From positions 76,419 to 140,418 of the forward strand of contig NZ_KB902520.1 of assembly GCF_000379525.1 (NCBI RefSeq): 64,000 bases of DNA, in the 5' to 3' direction. Positions 18,183 to 52,783 of this stretch are shown here, in pieces (the stretch's first letter is position 1; each line of letters begins with the position of its first letter). The translations under genes and the position numbers were made by a program. This DNA comes from Lamprocystis purpurea DSM 4197. GTDB lineage: Bacteria > Pseudomonadota > Gammaproteobacteria > Chromatiales > Chromatiaceae. The notes below the pieces were generated by a model, which ran no database searches, was not told the origin of the DNA, and saw only the letters and a program-made list of their open reading frames with translations.

Positions 18183-18254
18183 GTAGGGTGCGGTGAGGCA
18201 CGAACCGCACCGTTGGCGGTTGGTGCGGTTCGTGCGTCACCGCGCGCTACGAAT
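18183..18254. repeat. GTAGGGTGCGGTG palindromic repeat pair
   Basis: GTAGGGTGCGGTGAGGCACG is followed by its inverse GGTTCGTGCGTCACCGCGCG, forming a stem around GAACCGCACC. A half copy occurs at 19657-19685. It sits in the 462-bp gap before pstS, which otherwise holds the Pho box and no gene. Confidence 0.6.
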
Positions 18255-18443
18255 GATCTCGTGGCCGGAGCGATCATCAACGCCGGGTCACGCATCGGGC
18301 AGGGGCGGAGCGCTGCGAGCGCTGCCGGCTCGAAAATTGACTAAGGCCTGCAGGTTTGTCGCTGCGGTTGGACTTGTTCTTCTCTCGCTGCCGCAGTTGC
18401 GTCACCCAGTGCCGGCCGAGTACGCCGTTGACCGTTCGTCGGA

Positions 18444-18472
18444 TGTCATAAAACGGTCATATAAATGTCACA
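18444..18472 (+). promoter_or_regulatory. Pho box (three half-sites) of the pst operon
   Basis: GTCATAAAACG, GTCATATAAAT and GTCACA start at 18445, 18456 and 18467, three half-sites in exact 11-bp register and with the A/T-rich spacers of the PhoB consensus. It lies about 100 bp before the pstS start, which fits an activated promoter. Confidence 0.85.
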
Positions 18473-18573: not shown

Positions 18574-19632
18574 ATGCAGAAAGCATCGATCATCAAAGCG
18601 GTGTTGACCGCCGGTTGCGTCGCGCTGTTCGCTCTGTCCGCGCCGGTGAGCGCCGACGTCAAGCTCAACGGCTCGGGGGCGAGTTTCCCCTTTCCGATCT
18701 ACTCGAAATGGTTCAAGGATTTCAGTAAAGAGCATAAGGATATCCGCGTCGACTATCAATCCAAGGGTAGCGGCGCCGGCATACAGGACCTGATCAACGG
18801 CACCGTGGACTTTGCCGCTTCGGATGCCGCCATGGAAGACGCCGAGATCGCCAAAGTCAAGCAGGGCGTGGTGCTGCTGCCGATGACCGCCGGTGAGATC
18901 GTGCTGATCTATAACCTGAAAGGCGTGAAGGATCTCAAGCTGTCGCGCGCCGCCTATGCCGGGATTTTCAGCGGCACCATCACCAAGTGGAACGATCCGG
19001 CCATCGCCGCCACCAATCCGGGTGTGGCGCTGCCGGATAAGGCGATCACGGTCGTGACCCGCTCCGACTCATCGGGCACCTCCTACGTCTTTTCGGGTCA
19101 CCTGGCCGCCATCAGCGAGGCGTTCGACAAGGCAGTCGGCAAGAGCAAGCAGCCCAACTGGCCGTCGTCCGGCAAGTTCGTCGCTGCCCCCAAGAACGAT
19201 GGTGTCACCGCCCAGGTGCAGCAGAACGAGGGCGCCATCGGCTATGTCGAGTATGGCTACGCCAAGCTGACCGGCTGGAAGCAGGTTGCCCAACTCGAGA
19301 ACAAGTCGGGTAATTTCGTCGCCGCGGGCCCGCAGACCGGCGCCGCCGCGTTGGCCGCCTCCGAGTTTCCCGGCACGACCCTGCCCAACAGCGACGTGCC
19401 CAACCTGATCGCCTGGAACTGGGATCCGGTGGGCGCCGAATCCTATCCCATCGTGTCCTACACGTGGATGCTTTTCTATAAGGATCAGGACGATGCCAAG
19501 GCCGCGGCGCTGCGCAAGATGGTGAAATACGGCATCGAGGAAGGTCAAAAGATTGCCGATTCCATGGGCTATATCCCGCTGCCTGAGAACGTGCAGCAGA
19601 AGGTCCTGGAGGCTGCCGAGTTCATTCAATAG
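18574..19632 (+). CDS. pstS: Phosphate-binding protein PstS (first)
   Basis: The periplasmic phosphate receptor of the Pst ABC transporter. The 352-residue precursor has a signal peptide ending near VSAD. Phosphate-contact regions are clear: GSGASFPFP, SKGSGAGIQD, DFAASDAAMED and TRSDSSGTSYVF. The ATG at 18574 is chosen because the signal peptide starts there; the upstream open frame overlaps the Pho box. It is the first gene of a pstS-C-A-B-S2-SIR2 unit. A half copy of a GTAGGGTGCGG repeat lies between it and pstC, which could lower expression of the downstream genes relative to pstS. Confidence 0.97.
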   Translation: MQKASIIKAVLTAGCVALFALSAPVSADVKLNGSGASFPFPIYSKWFKDFSKEHKDIRVDYQSKGSGAGIQDLINGTVDFAASDAAMEDAEIAKVKQGVVLLPMTAGEIVLIYNLKGVKDLKLSRAAYAGIFSGTITKWNDPAIAATNPGVALPDKAITVVTRSDSSGTSYVFSGHLAAISEAFDKAVGKSKQPNWPSSGKFVAAPKNDGVTAQVQQNEGAIGYVEYGYAKLTGWKQVAQLENKSGNFVAAGPQTGAAALAASEFPGTTLPNSDVPNLIAWNWDPVGAESYPIVSYTWMLFYKDQDDAKAAALRKMVKYGIEEGQKIADSMGYIPLPENVQQKVLEAAEFIQ

Positions 19633-19789: not shown

Positions 19790-20764
19790 ATGGCTAACTT
19801 ATTTGCATCAGCAGGCTCGGCGAGCAGTGTCTCAGGGCCGCCATCCGGCGGCGATTACGCGGCCGACAGCATCTTTCGCGGTCTGGCCTGGCTCAGTGCC
19901 TTCCTCATCATTGCCCTCACCGGCTACATCCTGTGGGAGATACTGCGCGAGGCGTTCCCCGCGATGCAGGCTTATGGACTGGGCTTCATCACCGGGACCA
20001 CCTGGAATGTCAATGCGCAGCAGTTCGGCGTGCTGCCCGAAATTTGGGGCACGCTCTACAGTTCGCTGCTCGCGCTGTTCCTGGGGGGGAGTTTCGGGAT
20101 CGCGATCGCCATCTTCCTGACCCAGGACTTTCTCGATCATCGGGTGGCCACGGTCTTCCGCACCATCATCGAAATGCTGGCCGCCATTCCCTCGGTGGTG
20201 TTCGGGCTCTGGGGCATTTTCGTGCTGATCCCGCTGCTCAAGCCCGGCGCGGAGTGGCTGCACAGTCAGTTCGGCTGGTTCCCGCTGTTCAGTACCGATC
20301 TGGCCGGGCCTGGTATGGCCCCGGCCGCCTTGGTATTGGCGATCATGATCCTGCCGACCGTGGCGGCGATCTCGGTCGATGCCTTCCGGCGCATTCCCTA
20401 TAAGGTCAAAGAAGCCGCCTACGGGATGGGCACCACCCGCTGGGAGGCCATCCTCAAGGTCATGGTGCCGACCGCCTCATCCGGCCTGCTGGCCGCACTG
20501 GTGCTCGGCTTCGGCCGCGCGCTCGGCGAGACCATGGCGCTCGCCATGTTGATCGGTAACGCCAACCAGATCAGCCTGTCGCTGTTCTCCCCTGCCAACA
20601 CCCTGGCCTCGCTGCTGGCCTCCACCTTCCCCGAAGCCGGCCAGCTCGAGGTCCAGGCCCTGATGTACGCCGCGCTGGTGCTGCTGGTGATCACCTTCAT
20701 CGTGAATGTGCTCGGTCTGGCGGTGCAGCAATATACGATTCGGAAGTTCGAGGGTAAGAAATGA
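19790..20764 (+). CDS. pstC: Phosphate ABC transporter permease PstC
   Basis: Inner-membrane permease of 324 residues with six hydrophobic segments and the EAA-type loop EAAYGMGTTRWEAILKVMVP that contacts PstB. The charged residues in AFRRIPYKVKEAAYG are in the usual place. The ATG at 19790 follows GGGTGACC and gives the normal N-terminal length; the upstream open frame is derived from the repeat at 19657. The stop overlaps the pstA start by 4 bases (ATGA). Confidence 0.96.
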   Translation: MANLFASAGSASSVSGPPSGGDYAADSIFRGLAWLSAFLIIALTGYILWEILREAFPAMQAYGLGFITGTTWNVNAQQFGVLPEIWGTLYSSLLALFLGGSFGIAIAIFLTQDFLDHRVATVFRTIIEMLAAIPSVVFGLWGIFVLIPLLKPGAEWLHSQFGWFPLFSTDLAGPGMAPAALVLAIMILPTVAAISVDAFRRIPYKVKEAAYGMGTTRWEAILKVMVPTASSGLLAALVLGFGRALGETMALAMLIGNANQISLSLFSPANTLASLLASTFPEAGQLEVQALMYAALVLLVITFIVNVLGLAVQQYTIRKFEGKK

Positions 20765-21666
20765 GCGACTTCGATCTCACGAAAGCGGGCGAGGCCGCGC
20801 GCCCCATGCCGCAACTGGCCCGTCAGGGCTTCGAGGTGCGGGCGCTGAAAAGCGGTCTGCTCACCGGGCTGACCTGGCTCGCCGCGTTGATTGCCGCGGT
20901 GCCGCTTATTTCAGTGATGTACCTGCTGCTGGTCAAGGGCGGCAGCCGCCTGTTTGGGGCCGATTTCGCGGAGGTTCTGACCGGGCTGCCGCCCGCCGGA
21001 TTCGAACTGGGCGGCGGCATCGGCCCGGCGATCGTCGGCACCCTGGTGATGGTCGGCATCGCTTCGGTCATCAGCATCCCCATCGGCATCCTGGCGGCGA
21101 TCTATCTCGGCGTGCTGGAGCCGCGCAGCCGGCTGGCCAATACCTCCCGCTTCCTCGCTAAGGTGTTGACCGGATTCCCTTCCATCATGGCGGGCGTGTT
21201 CGTCTATGCGGTCCTGGTCATCCACTGGGGCTATTCGGCCTGGGCCGGCGGTATCGCATTAGCGGTGCTGATGTTGCGCACCGTGGTCCTGGCCGCCGAG
21301 GAGGCGATCGCCCAGGTTCCCCAGCGGATGAAGGACGCCGCCTACGGCATGGGCTGCACCCGCACCCAGGTGATCTGGAAGGTGGTCTTGCCCACCGGTT
21401 TGCCGGGCATTCTGACCGGGGTCCTGCTGGCGGTTGCCGGTGCGGCCGGGGAGTCCGCGCCCTTGCTGTTCACGGCGTTGTTCAGCAACTACTTCATCTC
21501 CGAGTTGTCCGAGCCGACTGCCTCGCTCTCGATCCTCATTTACAACTTCTCCGGCATGCCCTTCCCGAACCAGATCGAGCTGGCCTGGACGGCGTCGCTG
21601 GTGCTGGTGCTGATCGTGCTGATGTTCAACATCCTGGCACGCCTGATCGGTCAGCCCAAGGTCTGA
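20761..21666 (+). CDS. pstA: Phosphate ABC transporter permease PstA
   Basis: Second channel subunit, 301 residues. It has six hydrophobic segments and the EAA-type loop DAAYGMGCTRTQVIWKVVLP, followed by PGILTGVLLAVAGAAGESAPL, which is typical of PstA. The 4-base overlap with pstC indicates translational coupling. It forms the pore with PstC and is energised by PstB. Confidence 0.96.
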   Translation: MSDFDLTKAGEAARPMPQLARQGFEVRALKSGLLTGLTWLAALIAAVPLISVMYLLLVKGGSRLFGADFAEVLTGLPPAGFELGGGIGPAIVGTLVMVGIASVISIPIGILAAIYLGVLEPRSRLANTSRFLAKVLTGFPSIMAGVFVYAVLVIHWGYSAWAGGIALAVLMLRTVVLAAEEAIAQVPQRMKDAAYGMGCTRTQVIWKVVLPTGLPGILTGVLLAVAGAAGESAPLLFTALFSNYFISELSEPTASLSILIYNFSGMPFPNQIELAWTASLVLVLIVLMFNILARLIGQPKV

Positions 21667-21693: not shown

Positions 21694-22518
21694 ATGAACG
21701 CAGCAGCAGAATCGACGTTTGTCGCTGACCCCTACGCCGCCGTCGGTGAGGTCGTCATCGATTGCCAGGTCAATAAGATTTTCTACGGGGACTTTCTCGC
21801 CGTGCGGGACAGTCTGGTGCCCATCGAGCAGCATAAGATTACCGGTTTCATTGGGCCCTCGGGCTGCGGTAAATCCACGGTGCTGCGCAGCCTGAACCGC
21901 ATGAACGATCTGATTCAGGTGTTCCGCTTCGAGGGCAGCGTGATGTACCACGGACAGGATGTCTATGGGCCCAAGGTGGACCCGGTGCTGGTGCGCCGCT
22001 ATATCGGCATGGTGTTCCAGCAGCCCAATCCCTTCTCCATGAGCATCTATGACAACGTCGCCTTCGGGCTGCGGCTCAACCGCTTCAAGGGCGATATGGA
22101 CGAGCGCGTACAGAAGGCCCTGGAACGCGCCGCGCTGTGGAACGAGGTCAAGGACAAGCTCAAGAACAGCGGTCTGTCGCTCTCCGGCGGCCAGCAGCAG
22201 CGCCTGTGCATCGCCCGCGCCATCGCCACCGAACCCGATGTGCTCCTGATGGACGAGCCCTGCTCCGCGCTCGACCCGATCGCTACCCGCCAGGTGGAAG
22301 AACTGATGCTGGATCTGAAAAAGAACTACACCCTGGCCCTGGTGACGCACAACATGCAGCAGGCCACGCGCGTGGCGGACACCACCGCCTTCTTCTCGGT
22401 GGACATCTCCCATGGCGGACGCACCGGCTATCTGGTCGAAATGGGTCCCACCGCGCAAATCTTCGAAGCCCCCAGGGAACAACTCACCAAGGACTACATC
22501 TCCGGTCAGTTCAGTTGA
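21694..22518 (+). CDS. pstB: Phosphate ABC transporter ATPase PstB
   Basis: Cytoplasmic ATPase of 274 residues. Walker A is GPSGCGKST at 54-62, the signature is LSGGQQQR, Walker B is [13 protein letters not shown] and the switch histidine is in VTHNMQQ. No phoU gene follows, unlike the usual pst order; instead a second pstS and a SIR2-type gene follow. PhoU may be elsewhere in the genome. Confidence 0.97.
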
Positions 22519-22542: not shown

Positions 22543-23610
22543 ATGAAGGCTTCAAGACGATTCGCGGGGGCGGTGTTGGCGGTGCTGGCCGCCGTGGTGA
22601 TTCCGGCCTGGGCTGAAACGCCCGGTGAGCCGGCTGCGACCGCGACACCGGGGCTCACGATCAGCGGTGCCGGGGCGACCTTTCCCGCACCGCTCTACCA
22701 ACGCTGGATCCTCGACTACCGGGAGGTGCGTCCGGATCTGACCTTCACCTATGACGCCAAGGGCAGCGGCGAGGGCGTGAAGCGCTTTCTGGCCGGCACC
22801 GTGGATTTCGGGGCCAGCGATGCCGCGCTTTCGGACGCGGAGCTCAAGCAGGTCGATCCCCAGCGGGGCGCCCTGATGATCCCCATGACCGCCGGAATGG
22901 TGGTCCTCGCCTACAATATTCCGGGCGTGGCCGAGGGTCTGGTGCTCAGTCGCGAGGTTTACGTCGACATCTTCGCCGGCCGCATTCGCCAGTGGAACGA
23001 TCCGCGGATCAGCGCGGCCAATCCCGGCCTGACACTGCCCGCGAAGGCGATCGTCCCGGTCGTGCGGCGTGACTCCAGCGGCACCACCTTCGTGATGACC
23101 AATCATCTGGCGCATGTCGATCCGGGGTGGTCGCAGCAAGGTCCCGGCGTCGGCAAGCTGGTGGATTGGCCGGGTGCCGCCATGACCGCCAGCGGCAACG
23201 CCGGGGTCGCCCAGCGTGTCAAGATCACCGACGGTTCCATCGGCTATATGGAGTACGAGTTCGCCGAACGGCTGGGACTGCCCATTGCGATCCTGCACAA
23301 TAAGGCCGGTCAGCCGATCATCCCCAGCCCAGCCGCGGGACAGGCCGCACTGGCCTCGGTGACCGAGATCCCGGCGGACTTGCGGGTCTTTGTTCCGGAC
23401 CCCGAGGGGTCGGACGCCTACCCGATCGTCAGCTATTCCTGGCTGCTCTTGAACGCGCGCTATGCGGAACCGGCCAAGGCCGCGGCACTCAAGGACGCCC
23501 TGGCCTGGGGGCTCGATCAGGGTCAGTTGGTCGCGAGGGATATGGGCTATGTGCCCTTGCCCGCGGCCATGATCGCCAAGGCGAGCGAGGTGCTGGCACG
23601 GGTTGAATAG
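22543..23610 (+). CDS. pstS: Phosphate-binding protein PstS (second)
   Basis: A 355-residue secreted PstS paralogue with a signal peptide (ending near PAWAE) and the contact motifs GAGATFPAP, AKGSGEGVKRF, DFGASDAAL and RRDSSGTTFV. It is clearly diverged from the first PstS in the operon, so it probably differs in affinity or partner. The ATG at 22543 is preceded by GAGGGGA. It follows pstB by 24 bp and precedes the SIR2-type gene by 12 bp. Confidence 0.95.
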   Translation: MKASRRFAGAVLAVLAAVVIPAWAETPGEPAATATPGLTISGAGATFPAPLYQRWILDYREVRPDLTFTYDAKGSGEGVKRFLAGTVDFGASDAALSDAELKQVDPQRGALMIPMTAGMVVLAYNIPGVAEGLVLSREVYVDIFAGRIRQWNDPRISAANPGLTLPAKAIVPVVRRDSSGTTFVMTNHLAHVDPGWSQQGPGVGKLVDWPGAAMTASGNAGVAQRVKITDGSIGYMEYEFAERLGLPIAILHNKAGQPIIPSPAAGQAALASVTEIPADLRVFVPDPEGSDAYPIVSYSWLLLNARYAEPAKAAALKDALAWGLDQGQLVARDMGYVPLPAAMIAKASEVLARVE

Positions 23611-23622
23611 CGGAATAACCTG

Positions 23623-25005
23623 ATGCCCAACATCGATCCGCGGCTCATGGCGACCATCCAGGAAGGCCGTTGTGTGGCCTTTGTCGGGGCTGGCTTCTCG
23701 GCCGCGGCCGGGTTACCCCAGTGGAAGGACCTGATCCGCGCGGTCGCGGGCGATCTGCCGGCGCACGCGCGGGGACCCGAGTACGCGCTGGTGGCGTCGA
23801 TGCTCGACGACCAGCCCGCGCCGTCCAGCCGGGAACTGGCCATGGCGGCGCAACTCCTGTTCGATTCCCACGGCGAGGATGCGTTCCGTGAGCGCCTGGC
23901 CCTGGCCCTGCGCAAAGAACTGCTGCCCGCGGACATGCGGCTGCGCCTCAAGCACCTGTACGGCATCCCGTTCAGGGCGATCCTGACCACCAACTTCGAC
24001 CCGCTGCTTCCCGGCCTGCCGCCCGGCCCCGAGGCCTATCGCAAGCTCTTGCGGGGTCGGCGGCCATCGCCCTGGCGTGAGGCCCTGGCGCGGGTGGCCC
24101 TGGATCCAGGGCCGCCGGGCGGGGAGCGGGCGGATGGCGATGCGGTCGTCATCCAACTCCACGGCCGGTTGGATGTCGCCCAATCGCTGGTGCTGACGCG
24201 CGCGCAATACCAGCGGCGCCTCTACGCCGACCCCGCGTACCTCACGGTGCTGCGGTCGCTGTTCGCCACCTCCACCGTCCTGTTCCTGGGCTATTCACTG
24301 AACGACGCCTACCTCAACGAACTGCGCTCCGAGCTGGTGGAGGCCTTTGCGGGTAGCGGCCGGAGCGGCGAACCGCTGGCGTGGGCGGTGATCGAGGGCG
24401 TGTCGGAGGTCGCCTGCCGGTACTACGAGCGGCACGAAGGTCTCGGCGTGGTCGCCTACTGCCGTGGCAAGGCCGGTCGGGATCACGCCGGCTTCGACGC
24501 CATCTTGAAGGCGATCTACGATCAGACCAATCCAATCCACCGGTTGGGCGAGTTGCTCGCCGGTCGGCGGGTGTTGTGGTTCGATCCGAACCCGGCGCAC
24601 AACCACCGGGGACGCGACCTGTTACGCGCGGCCAGCGCGGAATGCGGCGACGCGGGCGATGCGTTCGGCGAGTGCTTTGTCGAGGCGCGGACGCTCGATC
24701 AGGCCTGGATGCGCTTGTTGGGCGCTGGTCGAATCGACCTTGTCGTTTGCCACTGGGGTCACGGCCTGGCGGCTGACGGACGCGCGAACGGCGAGGAGTT
24801 GCTGCGCCGCGTTGCCGGCCTGCGGGCGGGCGGGAACAATGCAGCACCGGTGGTGATCTTCTCCGGCGGCGGTGAGTATGAGTCGGTGAATCGCCGCCGC
24901 GCCCTGGATCTGGGCGCCGCCGAGTTCGTTTCCCGTTGGGAGGATCTGATCGCGGTATTGGAACGGGTGCTGGGCGAGACCTTTGCAGGTCGGGGCGGTA
25001 AATAG
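23623..25005 (+). CDS. SIR2-family protein with receiver-like C-terminal domain
   Basis: A 460-residue two-domain protein. Residues about 10-295 form a SIR2-type NAD-binding domain: GAGFSAAAGLPQWKDL at 22-37, TTNFDPLL with the family Asn at 124, QLHGRLD with the catalytic-type His at 180, and the late motif FLGYSLNDAYL. Bacterial SIR2 domains of this type often act as NAD hydrolases in phage defence. Residues about 312-455 look like a degenerate response-regulator receiver: VLWFDPNP, a central strand IDLVVCHWG where the phospho-Asp strand would lie, PVVIFSGGG and a final LGAAEFVSRWEDLIAVLERVL. It starts 12 bp after pstS2 on the same strand, so it appears to belong to the Pho-controlled pst operon. 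Its function is not established. Confidence 0.82.
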   Translation: MPNIDPRLMATIQEGRCVAFVGAGFSAAAGLPQWKDLIRAVAGDLPAHARGPEYALVASMLDDQPAPSSRELAMAAQLLFDSHGEDAFRERLALALRKELLPADMRLRLKHLYGIPFRAILTTNFDPLLPGLPPGPEAYRKLLRGRRPSPWREALARVALDPGPPGGERADGDAVVIQLHGRLDVAQSLVLTRAQYQRRLYADPAYLTVLRSLFATSTVLFLGYSLNDAYLNELRSELVEAFAGSGRSGEPLAWAVIEGVSEVACRYYERHEGLGVVAYCRGKAGRDHAGFDAILKAIYDQTNPIHRLGELLAGRRVLWFDPNPAHNHRGRDLLRAASAECGDAGDAFGECFVEARTLDQAWMRLLGAGRIDLVVCHWGHGLAADGRANGEELLRRVAGLRAGGNNAAPVVIFSGGGEYESVNRRRALDLGAAEFVSRWEDLIAVLERVLGETFAGRGGK

Positions 25006-28155: not shown

Positions 28156-28310
28156 GCCCGGTCGCGCGGTCGGTCCTCGCCGCATTGACGGCGTTGGGCC
28201 GATTACCGTGCAGGTGACCTCACCGACCTACAAAGGCGCGGCAGTTGCCGAGCCGTTATCGTGTCCCTTCCGGGTCCGGTGTTACACTGACCAGGCAACA
28301 GTCGGAGTAC

Positions 28311-28637
28311 ATGATGGCATCTTCCTTGGCGCGGGACATCCTGGCAGACATCGCAAAGCGTATCGCTGCCGACCTCCACCCGGAGCAGATCATCCTGTTC
28401 GGGTCCCATGCCTGGGGTACCCCGACCGAGGATAGCGACATCGACTTGCTGGTTATTCTGGCCGACTCCGACGAGCCGCCCCACCGTCGAGCCGTGCGCG
28501 CGCACCGCGCTTTGCGCGGAGTTCCCGTGCCGTGTGATATCATCGTTCGCACGCGGGCCGAGATCCAGCAAACCAATCCGGTGCGTTCGTCACTGCTGTT
28601 TCGTGCCTTGACTGAAGGGCGGCGATTGAATGGCTGA
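28311..28637 (+). CDS. MNT-type nucleotidyltransferase antitoxin-like protein
   Basis: A 108-residue minimal nucleotidyltransferase. The polymerase-beta motif GSHAWGTPTEDSDIDLLV has the G-S-x10-D-x-D pattern with both metal-binding aspartates. Related MntA proteins adenylylate their HEPN toxin partners and neutralise them. The ATG at 28311 has CGGAG upstream. The HEPN partner frame starts at 28630, overlapping the stop by 8 bases, but that partner is broken here, so the pair is probably non-functional as a toxin-antitoxin unit. Confidence 0.82.
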   Translation: MMASSLARDILADIAKRIAADLHPEQIILFGSHAWGTPTEDSDIDLLVILADSDEPPHRRAVRAHRALRGVPVPCDIIVRTRAEIQQTNPVRSSLLFRALTEGRRLNG

Positions 28638-28946
28638 TTTGCAGCGCCTGGACGCACTGGCCTGGCTACGCCGCGCCCGCGATGACCATAGGTGCTGCCA
28701 AGCGACTGTCCGGAACCGACCCTTATCCGGCGAGCGCTTCCCACCATTGCCGGCAAGCAGAAGGCGCTCAAGGCGGTAATCGCCGGTACCGGTGACGCGA
28801 TCCCTAAGACTCATGACCTGCGCGTCCCGCTCGGGCGCTGTGTCGCCATCGATCGGTCACTCGACCAATTCTACGACTGGAACCGGCGCGTTTCCGCCAG
28901 CCGACTGGCTGCTTACGCCAATGTTCCGAGTGAGTCTCTGGCGTGA
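28630..28946 (+). pseudogene. HEPN-domain protein, frameshifted
   Basis: The first frame gives MADLQRLDALAWLRRARDD, a typical HEPN start, then degenerates. A second frame resumes with KALKAVIAGTGDAIPKTHDL and continues through LGRCVAIDRSLDQFYDWNRR, also typical of HEPN proteins paired with MNT transferases. The join between about 28690 and 28755 has lost or altered sequence, so no single frame encodes the whole domain. The R-x4-6-H RNase motif seen in active HEPN toxins is not evident. Confidence 0.7.
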
Positions 28947-31663: not shown

Positions 31664-32958
31664 TTATTCGATCTCGACCCCCTTCTCCTCGATTTCCTTC
31701 ATGACCGCCTGGTAGACGGCCTCCTTGTGCTCCGCCTCCAGAACCTCGGGGCTCTTATTGCCGAAGAAGGACTGCGCGGCAAACACCAGGCCCGGCAAGA
31801 CGAAGAACACCCCCAGGATGTAGCCGAAGACGACCAGGCGAGAGCGCTCGGCCCCGTTGGCCAGCGCCTGGGCGGCCTGCATGGGCAGCCTCCACAGCGG
31901 CGGGATGGCGGCGAAGAGCGCCACGCCGAATCCGTTGTAGAGCAGGTGCACGAGGGCGACCTGCAACGCGAAGAGTTCATACTCGCCAGTGACCGCTGTT
32001 GCCGCGAGCAAGGCCGTGATCGGGGTTCCGAGGTTTGCCCCCAGGGTGAAGGGGTAGACCTGGGCCAAGGTGAACACCCCGGCACCCGCCATCGGCACGA
32101 TGAGCACGGTGGTCAGGGTCGACGACTGGACGATGAGGGTCACGACCAGGCCGGAGAGGACCGCCAGCGCCGCGCTCTTGCCGACGGCGGCGTTGAAGAC
32201 GCGCTGGGCCTTGCCCGTCATCACCGCCTTGAGGCTCTTGTTCAGGGCATATACCACACCCAGAACCGCCGCGATACCGACCACGATCATGACGAAGCCG
32301 CTGATCTGGTCCGGAAGCAGCCCGATCAGATCCCGCAGCGCATTGATGACCGGCCGCGTGATGGTCCGAATGAAATCGAAGTCCCGCATCGAGGCGTCGC
32401 CGCTCCCCTCGAAGAGCTTCGCCAGGTATCCCGCCAGCCGCTCCAGCGGGTGGAACAGCATCTCGATCGGCAGGAAGATCAGGATGGTGAACAGGTTGAA
32501 GAAATCGTGGACGGTCGCGGCACTGAACGAGCGGTTGAACGCCTTATCCTCCCGCAGGTTGCCCAGGGCGGCAAGGGTGTTGGTGACCGTCGTCCCCATG
32601 TTGGAGCCCATGATCATCGGAATCGCCATGGCCACCGGGAGACCGCCACCGACCAGACCCACGATCACCGAGGTCACCGCGCTGGAGGACTGCACCAATG
32701 AGGTCGCCAATACGCCGAGCAGGACACCCACGATCGGGTTCGTGGCAAACTCGAAGATCGCTGTAGCCCCAGCCGCGCCCCCGGAGACCGACCGGAAGCC
32801 CTGGCTGAGGAGCCCGACGGCAATCATCAGCGCATAGACAAGTGCAAGAACGATGAGCCACTGCACGACTCGCTGGATGTCGCTCGCCCCTTCCTCGGCG
32901 TCTCCCGCAACGCCTTGCGACACTCCAGCGCCACTCCCAACTGTGTCTTCGCCGCTCA
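31664..32958 (-). CDS. Na+/phosphate symporter, NptA/SLC34-like
   Basis: A 431-residue inner-membrane transporter of the Na/Pi-cotransporter family. The two inverted repeats carry the hallmark motifs QSSSAVTSVIVGLVGGG and QSSTLTTVLIVP, and GSNMGTTVTNTLAALG and GANLGTPITALLAATA. About eight membrane segments are visible, with a large soluble loop between the halves. The ATG at 32958 is chosen because GGAGG lies 7 bases upstream; the longer open frame starts near the divergent promoter. It is divergent from the DUF1576 gene, with a Pho box in the shared 360-bp region, giving the cell a second, sodium-driven phosphate uptake route besides Pst. Confidence 0.93.
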
Positions 32959-33265
32959 TAAAGCACCTCCAGAGGTTCAATTGCTCGGTCAATACGTTGA
33001 AAATGGCGGAACGTCCCGGGTCGCGTGGGCACCCCGACTTTCTCGCCTTGCCAAGTTTAGATGTGAAGTGTGACAATTCGCCGGGACCCTATGAAGCAAG
33101 GGTTATCGGCGCACTCAGGGGCGTGCTCGCCGATGCGTGTCGGCGCTGCAGCGTCCAGCAGGACTCGCGTGTGCGGGGTCGCCTGGGAAACGCTGATCAG
33201 ATCAACGTTGTTCGAGGTATCATCGATACGCCGAGCGCGCTCGCCATGAGTTGAATCCTCATCCC

Positions 33266-33287
33266 GCGGTCACCCCACGGTCATCCT
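33266..33287 (+). promoter_or_regulatory. Putative Pho box between symporter and DUF1576 genes
   Basis: GCGGTCACCCC then ACGGTCATCC give GGTCA half-sites at 33268 and 33279, 11 bp apart. TAATGTTAT a few bases on could be the -10 region, which places the transcript start near 33298 and favours translation from 33319 and not from the ATG at 33289. The rest of 32959-33318 shows no gene. Confidence 0.6.
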
Positions 33288-33318
33288 AATGTTATCGACA
33301 GAGACGCCCGACGACGCG

Positions 33319-34650
33319 ATGAATGAGCCGATCCGACCGGCACCAGAAACGGCGGACCGGCTGATCCTACGCGTGATCAGCGGCTATGCGGCCCTGTTCG
33401 TCGTCTTCGGTTTTCTGGTCTCCAGTCCCACCGAAATCGGCGAGGGGTTGGTCGCGATAATGACGTCGCGCGACACCCTATTGACCGATTATTTCGGCGT
33501 CGGCGGGGTAGGCGCCGGATTCGTCAATGCGGGCCTGCTGACCCTGAGTGCGTGCCTGGTCTACTTCCTCGTGGGGGCGAGGCTCAATGGTGCGGCGGTG
33601 GCCGCACTCTTTCTCCTGTTAGGGTTCGGCCTGTTCGGCAAGAATCTGCTCAATATCTGGTTCATCGTCTTCGGCGTGGCGTTGTACGCGCGTTTCAAGG
33701 GACAGCCATTCGCGACCCACATCAATGCCGCGTTCTTCGCAGTGGCGCTGTCGCCGGTTACCTCGGAGATCCTCTTCAGCTCCCTCTTGCCGGTTGAAGT
33801 CGCAGTGCCCCTTGGCATCGGTACCGGAGTCCTGATCGGATTCATCCTGCCGCCGGTGGCGGCCCAGGTGTTCAAGGCCCAGATGGGCTTCGCGCTCTAT
33901 AACATGGGATTTGCCGCGGGCCTGGTCGGGATCTTGATCGTTGCCTTATACAAATCCTACGGGTTCGTACCGGACCCCGTGCTCATCTGGACCACCGGGA
34001 ACAATCTTCTGCTGGGAAGTTTCGTCGGGTTTGTGTTGGCGACCATGCTGGCGATCGGACTCCTGCTGGATCGACACGCGCCCTGCGGCTTTGCGCGGAT
34101 CCTGCGCGAATCCGGCCAGGCGCCAACCGACTTCATCGCCATCGGCGGGTTCGGCGCGACCTTGATCAATATGGCGCTGAGCGGGGCGATCGGGCTGGCC
34201 TACGTCCTGGCCGTGGGCGGTGACCTGAACGGCCCGGTGATCGGGGCGCTGTTGTCGATCATGGGGTTCGCAGCGTTCGGCAAGCACCCGAAGAACCTCG
34301 TGCCGATCATCATCGGTGTCGTCCTGGGCTCGCTGGCAAAGCCGTGGCACTTGGCTGACCCCTCCATCCTGCTCGCCGCGCTCTTCGGCACCAACCTGGC
34401 GCCGATCGCCGGACGCTTCGGTTGGGGCTGGGGCATCGCCGCGGGCTTTTTGCACTCGTCAGCGGTGCTCAGCGTGGGTGTGATGCACGGCGGACTGAAT
34501 CTATACAACAACGGCTTCGCAGCCGGGATCGTCGCCACCGTTCTGGTTCCCATCATCATCGCGGTGCAATCCGGCAGGGCGCCGGTCGAACCGCCGCTTT
34601 GCCAGCCATCCGGCGCCTCGGGACGGCGCGTCGATGACGGTGATGCATGA
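33319..34650 (+). CDS. DUF1576 family polytopic membrane protein
   Basis: About 443 residues with ten or more hydrophobic segments and two similar halves: GVGGVGAGFVNAGLLTLSA and IGGFGATLINMALSGAIG, each followed by GFGLFGKNLLNIW or GFAAFGKHPKNLVP. This internal repeat and GFAAG motifs match the DUF1576 family, which has no assigned function and looks like a transporter. Starts at 33289 and 33319 are both possible; 33319 fits the promoter elements better. Divergence from a Na/Pi symporter behind a Pho-box-like site suggests a role under phosphate limitation, but substrate is unknown. Confidence 0.82.
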   Translation: MNEPIRPAPETADRLILRVISGYAALFVVFGFLVSSPTEIGEGLVAIMTSRDTLLTDYFGVGGVGAGFVNAGLLTLSACLVYFLVGARLNGAAVAALFLLLGFGLFGKNLLNIWFIVFGVALYARFKGQPFATHINAAFFAVALSPVTSEILFSSLLPVEVAVPLGIGTGVLIGFILPPVAAQVFKAQMGFALYNMGFAAGLVGILIVALYKSYGFVPDPVLIWTTGNNLLLGSFVGFVLATMLAIGLLLDRHAPCGFARILRESGQAPTDFIAIGGFGATLINMALSGAIGLAYVLAVGGDLNGPVIGALLSIMGFAAFGKHPKNLVPIIIGVVLGSLAKPWHLADPSILLAALFGTNLAPIAGRFGWGWGIAAGFLHSSAVLSVGVMHGGLNLYNNGFAAGIVATVLVPIIIAVQSGRAPVEPPLCQPSGASGRRVDDGDA

Positions 34651-34869: not shown

Positions 34870-35901
34870 ATGCATCTGCATCGTATCGGCGCGGCCGCGC
34901 TCGCCTTGGCCCTCAGCTTACTGCTCAGCCTGCCGGCGCAGGCGCAGCAGGTCCGGATCAACGGCGGCGGGGCGAGCTTCCCGTTCCCGCTCTACTCGGC
35001 GTGGTTTCGTCACTTCAATCGGGAGAATCGGGGGATACGGATCAACTACCAGTCGGTCGGCAGCGGCACCGGCGTGCGCAACGTCATCAACCGCACCTTC
35101 GATTTTGGCGCCAGCGACGCGGCCATGACCGACGAGGAGATGGCCCAAGTGCGCGGCGGGGTGCTGGTGCTGCCCATGACGGCCGGTGAGATCGTGCTCG
35201 CCTACAACCTGCCGGGGATCGACAATGTGCGGCTGCCGCGCGCCGTCTACCCGCTGATCTTCTCCGGTGAGATCACCAACTGGAGCGATCCGCGGATCGC
35301 CGCGGCCAATCCTGGCGTGACCCTCCCCGACCGGACGATCCGGGTCGTGCGGCGGTCCGATTCCTCGGGCACCACCTTCGTCTTCACCCAACACCTGAGC
35401 GCCATCAATGAGTCCTTCCGCACGCGGGTGGGGACCGGCACCTCGGTGTCCTGGCCGAACCAGCCGAATATCATCGGCGCACCGCGCAACGATGGCGTCA
35501 CCGCCACCGTCAACCAGACGGTGGGTTCGATCGGTTATATCGAGTATTTCTTCGCCACCTCGACCAACGCTCAGGTGGCAATGTTGGAGAATGCCGCCGG
35601 TCAGTTCGTCGCGCCCAGCGACGAGTCCGGCCAGGCGGCCCTGGCCGGCGCGGACCTCACGGGCAAGGACCTGCGCATCTGGGTGACGGACCCCGCTGAC
35701 CCGGCGGCCTACCCGATCGTCACCTTTACCTGGATGCTGTTCTTCCGCGAGCACGGCAACGAACGGATCAGTGCGGCCCTGCGCGACTTCGTCACCTGGG
35801 CGCTGGCGGATGGTCAGGGAATGGCGGCCGACCTCGGCTACATCCCGATGCCGAAGGCCGTCGTGGAGCGCGTTCAGGCGGAGATCCCCAACATCCGCTA
35901 G
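34870..35901 (+). CDS. pstS: Phosphate-binding protein PstS (third, stand-alone)
   Basis: A 343-residue secreted PstS paralogue with a signal peptide ending at AQAQQ. Contact motifs are GGGASFPFP, VGSGTGVRN, DFGASDAAMTD and RRSDSSGTTFVF. No permease or ATPase gene is adjacent, so it must deliver phosphate to the PstCAB at 19.8-22.5 kb or act as a sensor or scavenger. SD-like CAGGAG is 8 bases upstream of the ATG. Confidence 0.95.
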   Translation: MHLHRIGAAALALALSLLLSLPAQAQQVRINGGGASFPFPLYSAWFRHFNRENRGIRINYQSVGSGTGVRNVINRTFDFGASDAAMTDEEMAQVRGGVLVLPMTAGEIVLAYNLPGIDNVRLPRAVYPLIFSGEITNWSDPRIAAANPGVTLPDRTIRVVRRSDSSGTTFVFTQHLSAINESFRTRVGTGTSVSWPNQPNIIGAPRNDGVTATVNQTVGSIGYIEYFFATSTNAQVAMLENAAGQFVAPSDESGQAALAGADLTGKDLRIWVTDPADPAAYPIVTFTWMLFFREHGNERISAALRDFVTWALADGQGMAADLGYIPMPKAVVERVQAEIPNIR

Positions 35902-52120: not shown

Positions 52121-52783
52121 TTGGCGAAACCGCGGCTGAATCTTCCCGAGATCGAGTCATCCCTGCGCGCGGTGCAGCGGGACTTCGCGCAGATCAATGC
52201 CACCCTGGACAGTCCGCGCGACCCGCTGCGGGACGAGGTGCTGGAAAACCTGTTGGCGGGTTATGAGTATGTCGACTCGCTGCTCGCGGCGGATCTGGAC
52301 CCATTCGCGCTCGGCAACTCCAAACATCTTTTGCAGCTCAATTACCTGGTGCTTTGCGGAACCCGCGATCTGGCCTATGAGGAATGTGCCCGGCACGCGC
52401 GCGAAACCGAGCAGCGCTATTACGATGACACCAACACCGGCGGCGCGCGCGCCTTCATGAATGCCATGGCCGACCAGCGCGGCAAGAGCGTCTGGCGGCG
52501 CGCGGCCGGTGCCTATATTCAGATGCTTTCGGCGCCCCAACTCTTCATCGAGGGAAACCATCGTACCGGGGCCCTGGTGATGAGTTGCCTGCTGTGTCGG
52601 GAAGGTCACCCGCCATTCGTGCTCACGGTCGGCAACGCCAAGGCCTATTTCGACCCGTCCACGGTTGTCAAGGGCTGCCGCAAGCGCAGTCTTCATGCGC
52701 TCATGGCAATCCCGAAACTGCGCAAGTGTCTTGCCAAGCTCATCGAGAAAGAGGCGGATCGACGTTTCCTGGCTCGCTCCTAA
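52121..52783 (+). CDS. Fic/DOC-like protein lacking the catalytic histidine
   Basis: 220 residues from a TTG start that has AAGGAG 8 bases upstream. The only strong motif is QLFIEGNHRTGALVMSCLL at about residue 140, close to the Fic core HxFx(D/E)GN(G/K)R. The position of the catalytic His is Gln here, while the E-G-N and the Arg are kept. The fold around it (N-terminal helices, later NAKAYFDPSTVVKG) also suits a Fic domain. It may bind but not transfer AMP, or use another chemistry. It overlaps the convergent outer-membrane gene by 4 bases. Confidence 0.7.
   Translation: MAKPRLNLPEIESSLRAVQRDFAQINATLDSPRDPLRDEVLENLLAGYEYVDSLLAADLDPFALGNSKHLLQLNYLVLCGTRDLAYEECARHARETEQRYYDDTNTGGARAFMNAMADQRGKSVWRRAAGAYIQMLSAPQLFIEGNHRTGALVMSCLLCREGHPPFVLTVGNAKAYFDPSTVVKGCRKRSLHALMAIPKLRKCLAKLIEKEADRRFLARS

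Follow-up and report, generated by a model that had tools for sequence, protein, structure and literature searches.

A probable NAD-destroying SIR2 enzyme joined to a degenerate receiver domain behind a pst operon of Lamprocystis purpurea

The pst operon and the gene at its 3' end

The stretch of DNA analysed here (64,000 nucleotides of Lamprocystis purpurea DSM 4197, hereafter the window) contains on its forward strand a phosphate uptake operon with the gene order pstS1-pstC-pstA-pstB-pstS2-SIR2. The gene for the first phosphate-binding protein, pstS1 (18574-19632; TIGR00975 E=3e-104), likely starts at the ATG at 18574 and not at the GTG at 18193. It is followed by the open reading frame of the permease gene pstC (19790-20764), which was named by position and sequence and not by a profile and is found in the same order and with 98.8% identity in a Lamprocystis relative (G006), by the permease gene pstA (20761-21666; BPD_transp_1 E=7.6e-18), the ATPase gene pstB (21694-22518; ABC_tran E=1.6e-28) and pstS2 for a second phosphate-binding protein (22543-23610; TIGR00975 E=1.2e-97). 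The last gene, an open reading frame for a SIR2-receiver fusion protein of 460 aa (23623-25005), begins 12 nt behind the stop codon of pstS2 (gap 23611-23622), and G006, which encodes a 95% identical protein, has the same pst-SIR2 order and an equal gap. No promoter-like site was called on the forward strand between 18000 and 25600, nor was a terminator-like site called in the gap separating pstS2 from the SIR2 gene, suggesting, together with the 12-nt spacing, that the SIR2 gene is likely co-transcribed with the pst operon. The start of the gene directly behind the second pstS, with no promoter gap, had been pointed out in an earlier sequence-only reading of this DNA and is borne out by the positions of the open reading frames.

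A three-unit Pho box is predicted at 18443-18471 on the forward strand, some 100 bp ahead of the start codon of pstS1 (units ATGTCAT, CGGTCAT and ATGTCAC, separated by AAAA and ATAA; ATGTCATAAAACGGTCATATAAATGTCAC). It agrees with the consensus at 26 of 29 positions; the best of the other independent sites in the 64-kb window agrees at 20. Since the two-unit pattern with up to three mismatches is by itself not above chance, the assignment is based on the three-unit score, which supports the proposed placement of the gene in a putatively Pho-controlled pst operon. Further downstream two weak Pho-box pairs, overlapping and offset by 11 bp, are found at 33267-33295 (forward strand), where a DUF1576 membrane-protein gene (33289-34650) begins. 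The next gene is pstS3 (about 34948-35900), and a gene for a Na/Pi symporter (31664-33076) lies on the strand opposite to the DUF1576 gene.

SIR2 proteins of this kind had been expected near other defence genes. The neighbours of the window gene are the pst genes, a membrane protein, a pyk-like gene and an MNT/HEPN locus; no defence island is recognisable and membership in one was rejected, as these neighbours yield no system. The last of them consists of an MNT nucleotidyltransferase gene (28245-28946, forward strand) with a weak match to the PADLOC candidate PDC-S09, followed by a short HEPN fragment, probably a decayed MNT-HEPN toxin-antitoxin pair, and a near-identical MNT is present in another relative (G004).

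Domains of the SIR2-receiver protein

The N-terminal domain (residues 1-302, 23623-24528, forward strand) is of the SIR2 NADase type, with the motifs GAG (22-24), TTNFD (122-126), LHG (179-181) and GYSxxD (223-228), and SIR2_2 is the sole Pfam domain called in the protein (E=1.8e-19). A scan of a genome collection yielded 25 loci. The proteins of 19 of them, one truncated at the end of its contig, share this architecture and make up, together with the window protein, an alignment of 20 members. N124, D126, H180 and G22-A23-G24 are invariant in all 20, confirming the SIR2 domain with its Asn and His in place. KomC and ThsA were both aligned, and H180 pairs with H146 of KomC, the residue mutated in the solved entry KomC(H146N). 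A profile built from the 20 homologues matches in its N-terminal part the USG protein 7uxt, KomC, ThsA, DSR2 and human FAM118B, and Foldseek returned DSR2, ThsA and KomC as best matches. Among PADLOC profiles ThsA (E=3e-19; best-matching stretch residues 169-244, inside the SIR2 domain) and LmuA (E=1.6e-18) were found. The gene has a dN/dS of 0.14 relative to the G006 copy, similar to pstS2 (0.18), and is under purifying selection.

The C-terminal domain (residues 315-456, 24565-24990, forward strand) had been read as a degenerate response-regulator receiver, and profile, model topology, Foldseek and column counts all agree with this assignment. The profile of the 20 homologues matches the receivers 6swl, BasR, KdpE and CheY, and the Pfam model Response_reg matches weakly in five of the 20 members. 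In an AlphaFold2 model of the full protein (20 sequences, pLDDT 80.7) residues 317-455 form alternating beta and alpha elements, and the models show a five-stranded (beta-alpha)5 topology. The domain modelled in isolation reached a pLDDT of 86, and its best 50 PDB matches in Foldseek comprise response-regulator receivers and receiver-like proteins only, which decides the comparison of receiver, TIR-like and SLOG folds in favor of the receiver and against the other two. Searches of the genomes of the class with the C-terminal domain alone gave weak matches only, and the two that were opened are ordinary receiver-GGDEF proteins, which is consistent with receiver identity and silent on function.

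How degenerate is this receiver? In the 20-member alignment the first acidic residue is retained (D321), the second acidic position is occupied by Pro, Ala or Ser, and the position of the phosphorylated Asp is His in 13 of 20 members (in the sequence THWG; His377 in the window protein) and Asp in a single one. At the Thr/Ser position the members have Ala or Ser, and at that of the Lys the residue varies across the family, with Arg438 in the window protein. As the phospho-acceptor is mostly His and the Lys is lost, phosphorylation and control by a phosphorelay are unlikely, and a phospho-controlled receiver was rejected. Conserved instead are W319, D321, H377-W378-G379 and W439, and we infer from this pattern that a binding pocket has been retained. 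Compared to the receivers of CheY, KdpE and XynC, the domain thus shares the (beta-alpha)5 fold and the first acidic residue but has His for the phosphorylated Asp in most members and no conserved Lys, and no kinase partner was seen.

Among known SIR2 systems, ThsA of Thoeris, a SIR2-SLOG protein, resembles the fusion protein in its N-terminal SIR2 NADase domain with catalytic Asn and His, its length of about 460-480 aa and its one regulatory domain at the C-terminus, which has a Rossmann-like topology. It differs in that this domain is SLOG/STALD or a macro domain in ThsA and a degenerate CheY-like receiver here. No ThsB/TIR gene was recognised beside the SIR2-receiver gene among the neighbours, part of which were profile-scanned for TIR. 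KomC, the SIR2 NADase of Kongming, is among the closest proteins in the SIR2 domain by Foldseek and profile. However, KomC is a bare SIR2 protein activated via KomB and dITP, whereas the SIR2-receiver protein has its own C-terminal domain, and neither KomA nor KomB was recognised among the neighbours of SIR2-receiver genes. DSR2 has the SIR2 fold and the catalytic pair (N133/H171), and its C-terminal domain controls the SIR2 pocket (PMC10973363). It differs in being about 1000 aa long, with a large C-terminal region that is not a receiver, and in acting as a single gene that recognises the phage tail tube; NF041818, the profile test for DSR1/DSR2, matches only residues 2-41 of the 460-aa protein, far under the cutoff, and the protein is much shorter than this class, whose members have some 1000-1250 aa and an extended C-terminal region.

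Distribution of the family and the slot behind pst

The SIR2-receiver fusion is a small unnamed family scattered across distant bacteria. Scans of Pfam, NCBIfam and PADLOC turned up no curated model for it, and the open-access literature searched yielded no paper on such a fusion. Members occur in Myxococcota, Actinomycetota, Nitrospirota, Planctomycetota and Pseudomonadota, the distant ones having 35-46% identity. They are infrequent, being present in 11 of the 379 Myxococcota genomes sampled (~3%) and in two of 296 in the class of the locus L031. In the tree the three Pseudomonadota sequences group with full support and are adjoined, with moderate support, by one sequence each from Deltaproteobacteria and Nocardioides, a grouping that suggests horizontal spread of the family. 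A mobile or phage-borne gene was rejected, as no homologue was found in the plasmid, phage and viral collections searched.

Among 210 genomes of the family to which the window belongs, full-length counterparts occur only in G006 and, with about 60-62% identity, in G098, whose orthologue adjoins genes for a MerR regulator and an ARPP-1 protein (L026). In G004 the pst operon stops at pstS2 without a SIR2 gene, and a SIR2 remnant of 112 codons with two internal deletions lies beside pstS3 on another contig (L017:12107-12445). Directly behind pstS2 of this genome there is a mosaic open reading frame composed of pyk-like and pstS3 pieces with several internal deletions (L073:4660-5466), and the deletions of the SIR2 remnant are clean, in-frame and of the same kind. 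The remaining homologues stand alone; their neighbours, identified by eye from sequence, include gyrB and genes for a sigma factor, alanine dehydrogenase and an AMP-ligase-like protein. No conserved partner gene was found across the homologue loci, and the one defence neighbour in them, a gene of the GmrSD type, lies 2.7 kb away from the homologue in L028. Only two of the 20 aligned genes, those of the window and of G006, are linked to pst. The search for the pstS-SIR2 pair among the 210 family genomes likewise returned these two genomes only, so that a conserved pair was rejected. With 18 of the 20 proteins encoded away from pst in unrelated contexts, the proposed tie of NAD turnover or defence to phosphate status is not supported beyond the two close siblings, and no general link to phosphate is shown. 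Such unrelated contexts had been named in the earlier reading as grounds against its own proposal.

The gene had also been said to occupy the position in which phoU is normally found. No phoU follows pst in any relative examined, and PhoU domains are encoded elsewhere in the genome of the window (C157:73156-73728, C162 and C136). In three relatives (G001, G005 and G007) the gene behind pstB or pstS2 encodes a Fic-like protein, which matches PF02661 below the cutoff (E=0.0002-0.003) and is present in 44 of the 210 genomes. Related loci are L078-L083 and L098-L121, and in the window the gene lies at 52121-52783 (forward strand), 27 kb downstream of the SIR2 gene. In 27 of 30 loci examined, from many genera of purple sulphur bacteria, pst genes lie within 1.5 kb. 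The three unlinked loci are exactly those of the window's genome, G004 and G006, the lineage with the SIR2 gene or its remnant, the G006 copy lying at a contig end with its neighbours partly seen. We conclude from these gene orders that a rearrangement in the lineage of the window parted the Fic-like gene from pst and placed the SIR2 gene behind pstS2. Active Fic enzymes have a His in their catalytic motif at a position where the Fic-like proteins carry Gln (PQL(F/Y)xEGNHR(T/A)G; PQLFIEGNHRTG). Judged by sequence, what is conserved next to pst in purple sulphur bacteria is a putative pseudo-Fic protein.

Possible roles of the protein

What could such a protein do? It is a probable NAD-destroying enzyme joined to a broken signal-receiver domain. 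The SIR2 domain would cleave NAD+ into nicotinamide and ADP-ribose, and the C-terminal domain would serve as sensor or gate, by analogy with SLOG in ThsA and the C-terminal domain of DSR2: binding of a ligand or a protein to the pocket formed by W319, D321 and H377-W378-G379 would release the SIR2 domain. The patchy distribution and the similarity to ThsA, KomC and DSR2 favor a dormancy or abortive effector. On balance we lean towards a stand-alone, receiver-gated NADase of the ThsA/KomC/DSR2 class, most likely acting in dormancy or abortive infection, that in the Lamprocystis lineage was placed recently at the 3' end of a Pho-boxed pst operon. Among the immune effectors of bacteria, SIR2 NADases form a major class in which regulatory C-terminal domains define infection sensing, and conserved fusion to a receiver fold that cannot be phosphorylated would add a sensor type absent from the curated models searched.

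A tentative alternative, to which we give clearly less credence, is NAD and ADP-ribose housekeeping, with the protein slowly hydrolysing NAD+ so as to balance NAD pools together with NUDIX ADP-ribose pyrophosphatases and NrtR, and the receiver as a sensor of a metabolite instead of infection. A NUDIX-type gene is the direct neighbour in three of 18 homologue loci: in L030 (7105-9254) the SIR2-receiver gene lies beside a divergent NUDIX gene of the NrtR type, a regulator of NAD, in L032 the NUDIX gene is 46 bp upstream, and in L033 (5931-8218) it overlaps by 4 bp. The arrangements in L030 and L033 could represent an NAD/ADP-ribose gene pair. Given the six to 17 NUDIX genes per genome (eight homologue genomes counted), adjacency in three of 18 loci is above expectation, albeit in a post hoc count, and the L032 gene may belong to what we take to be a common actinobacterial order of pyrG and NUDIX. 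These neighbours, which count for the receiver-gated NADase too, would fit housekeeping equally well. The solitary position of the homologues, their absence from the plasmids and phages searched and the purifying selection also speak for housekeeping, and the lack of a conserved partner gene, of a homologue in the plasmid, phage and viral collections searched and, L028 excepted, of a defence neighbour speaks against the effector. On the other hand, the very patchy presence, as in Myxococcota, and the loss in G004 fit an accessory effector better.

Returning to the favored receiver-gated effector, its placement behind a Pho-boxed operon would be expected to raise the dose and not the activity of the enzyme under phosphate starvation, and Pho control, if real, would be a local acquisition. 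That a SIR2 NADase gated by a dead receiver sensing a ligand or a protein was captured by Pho in Lamprocystis such that NAD depletion is armed specifically in phosphate-starved cells seems to us doubtful. The locus also advises caution in reading function from operon position, since only two siblings show the link to pst and the conserved neighbour of pst is the Fic-like protein. A regulator that replaces PhoU, sensing Pst activity and adjusting NAD turnover or Pho signalling, is highly improbable. The 12-nt spacing within a Pho-boxed operon, equal in two species, and the purifying selection would suit it, but the genome encodes phoU at other loci, orthologues are found outside the pst context, the G004 operon lacks the SIR2 gene and the slot in relatives holds the Fic-like gene; moreover, the protein has no PhoU match in Pfam, and a PhoU substitute was rejected. 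Least probable of all is an NAD-dependent protein deacylase that regulates proteins through deacylation with a receiver attached, for which membership in the SIR2 superfamily and weak matches to PRK00481/CobB, restricted to the nucleotide-binding motif, could be cited: the six cysteines (17, 265, 280, 341, 351 and 376) include no CxxC pair, so that the protein lacks the zinc module of deacylase sirtuins, the Pfam match is to SIR2_2 and not to classical SIR2, and sequence and models point to the fold of the SIR2 NADases, which are the closest solved relatives, and not to that of a zinc-dependent deacylase.
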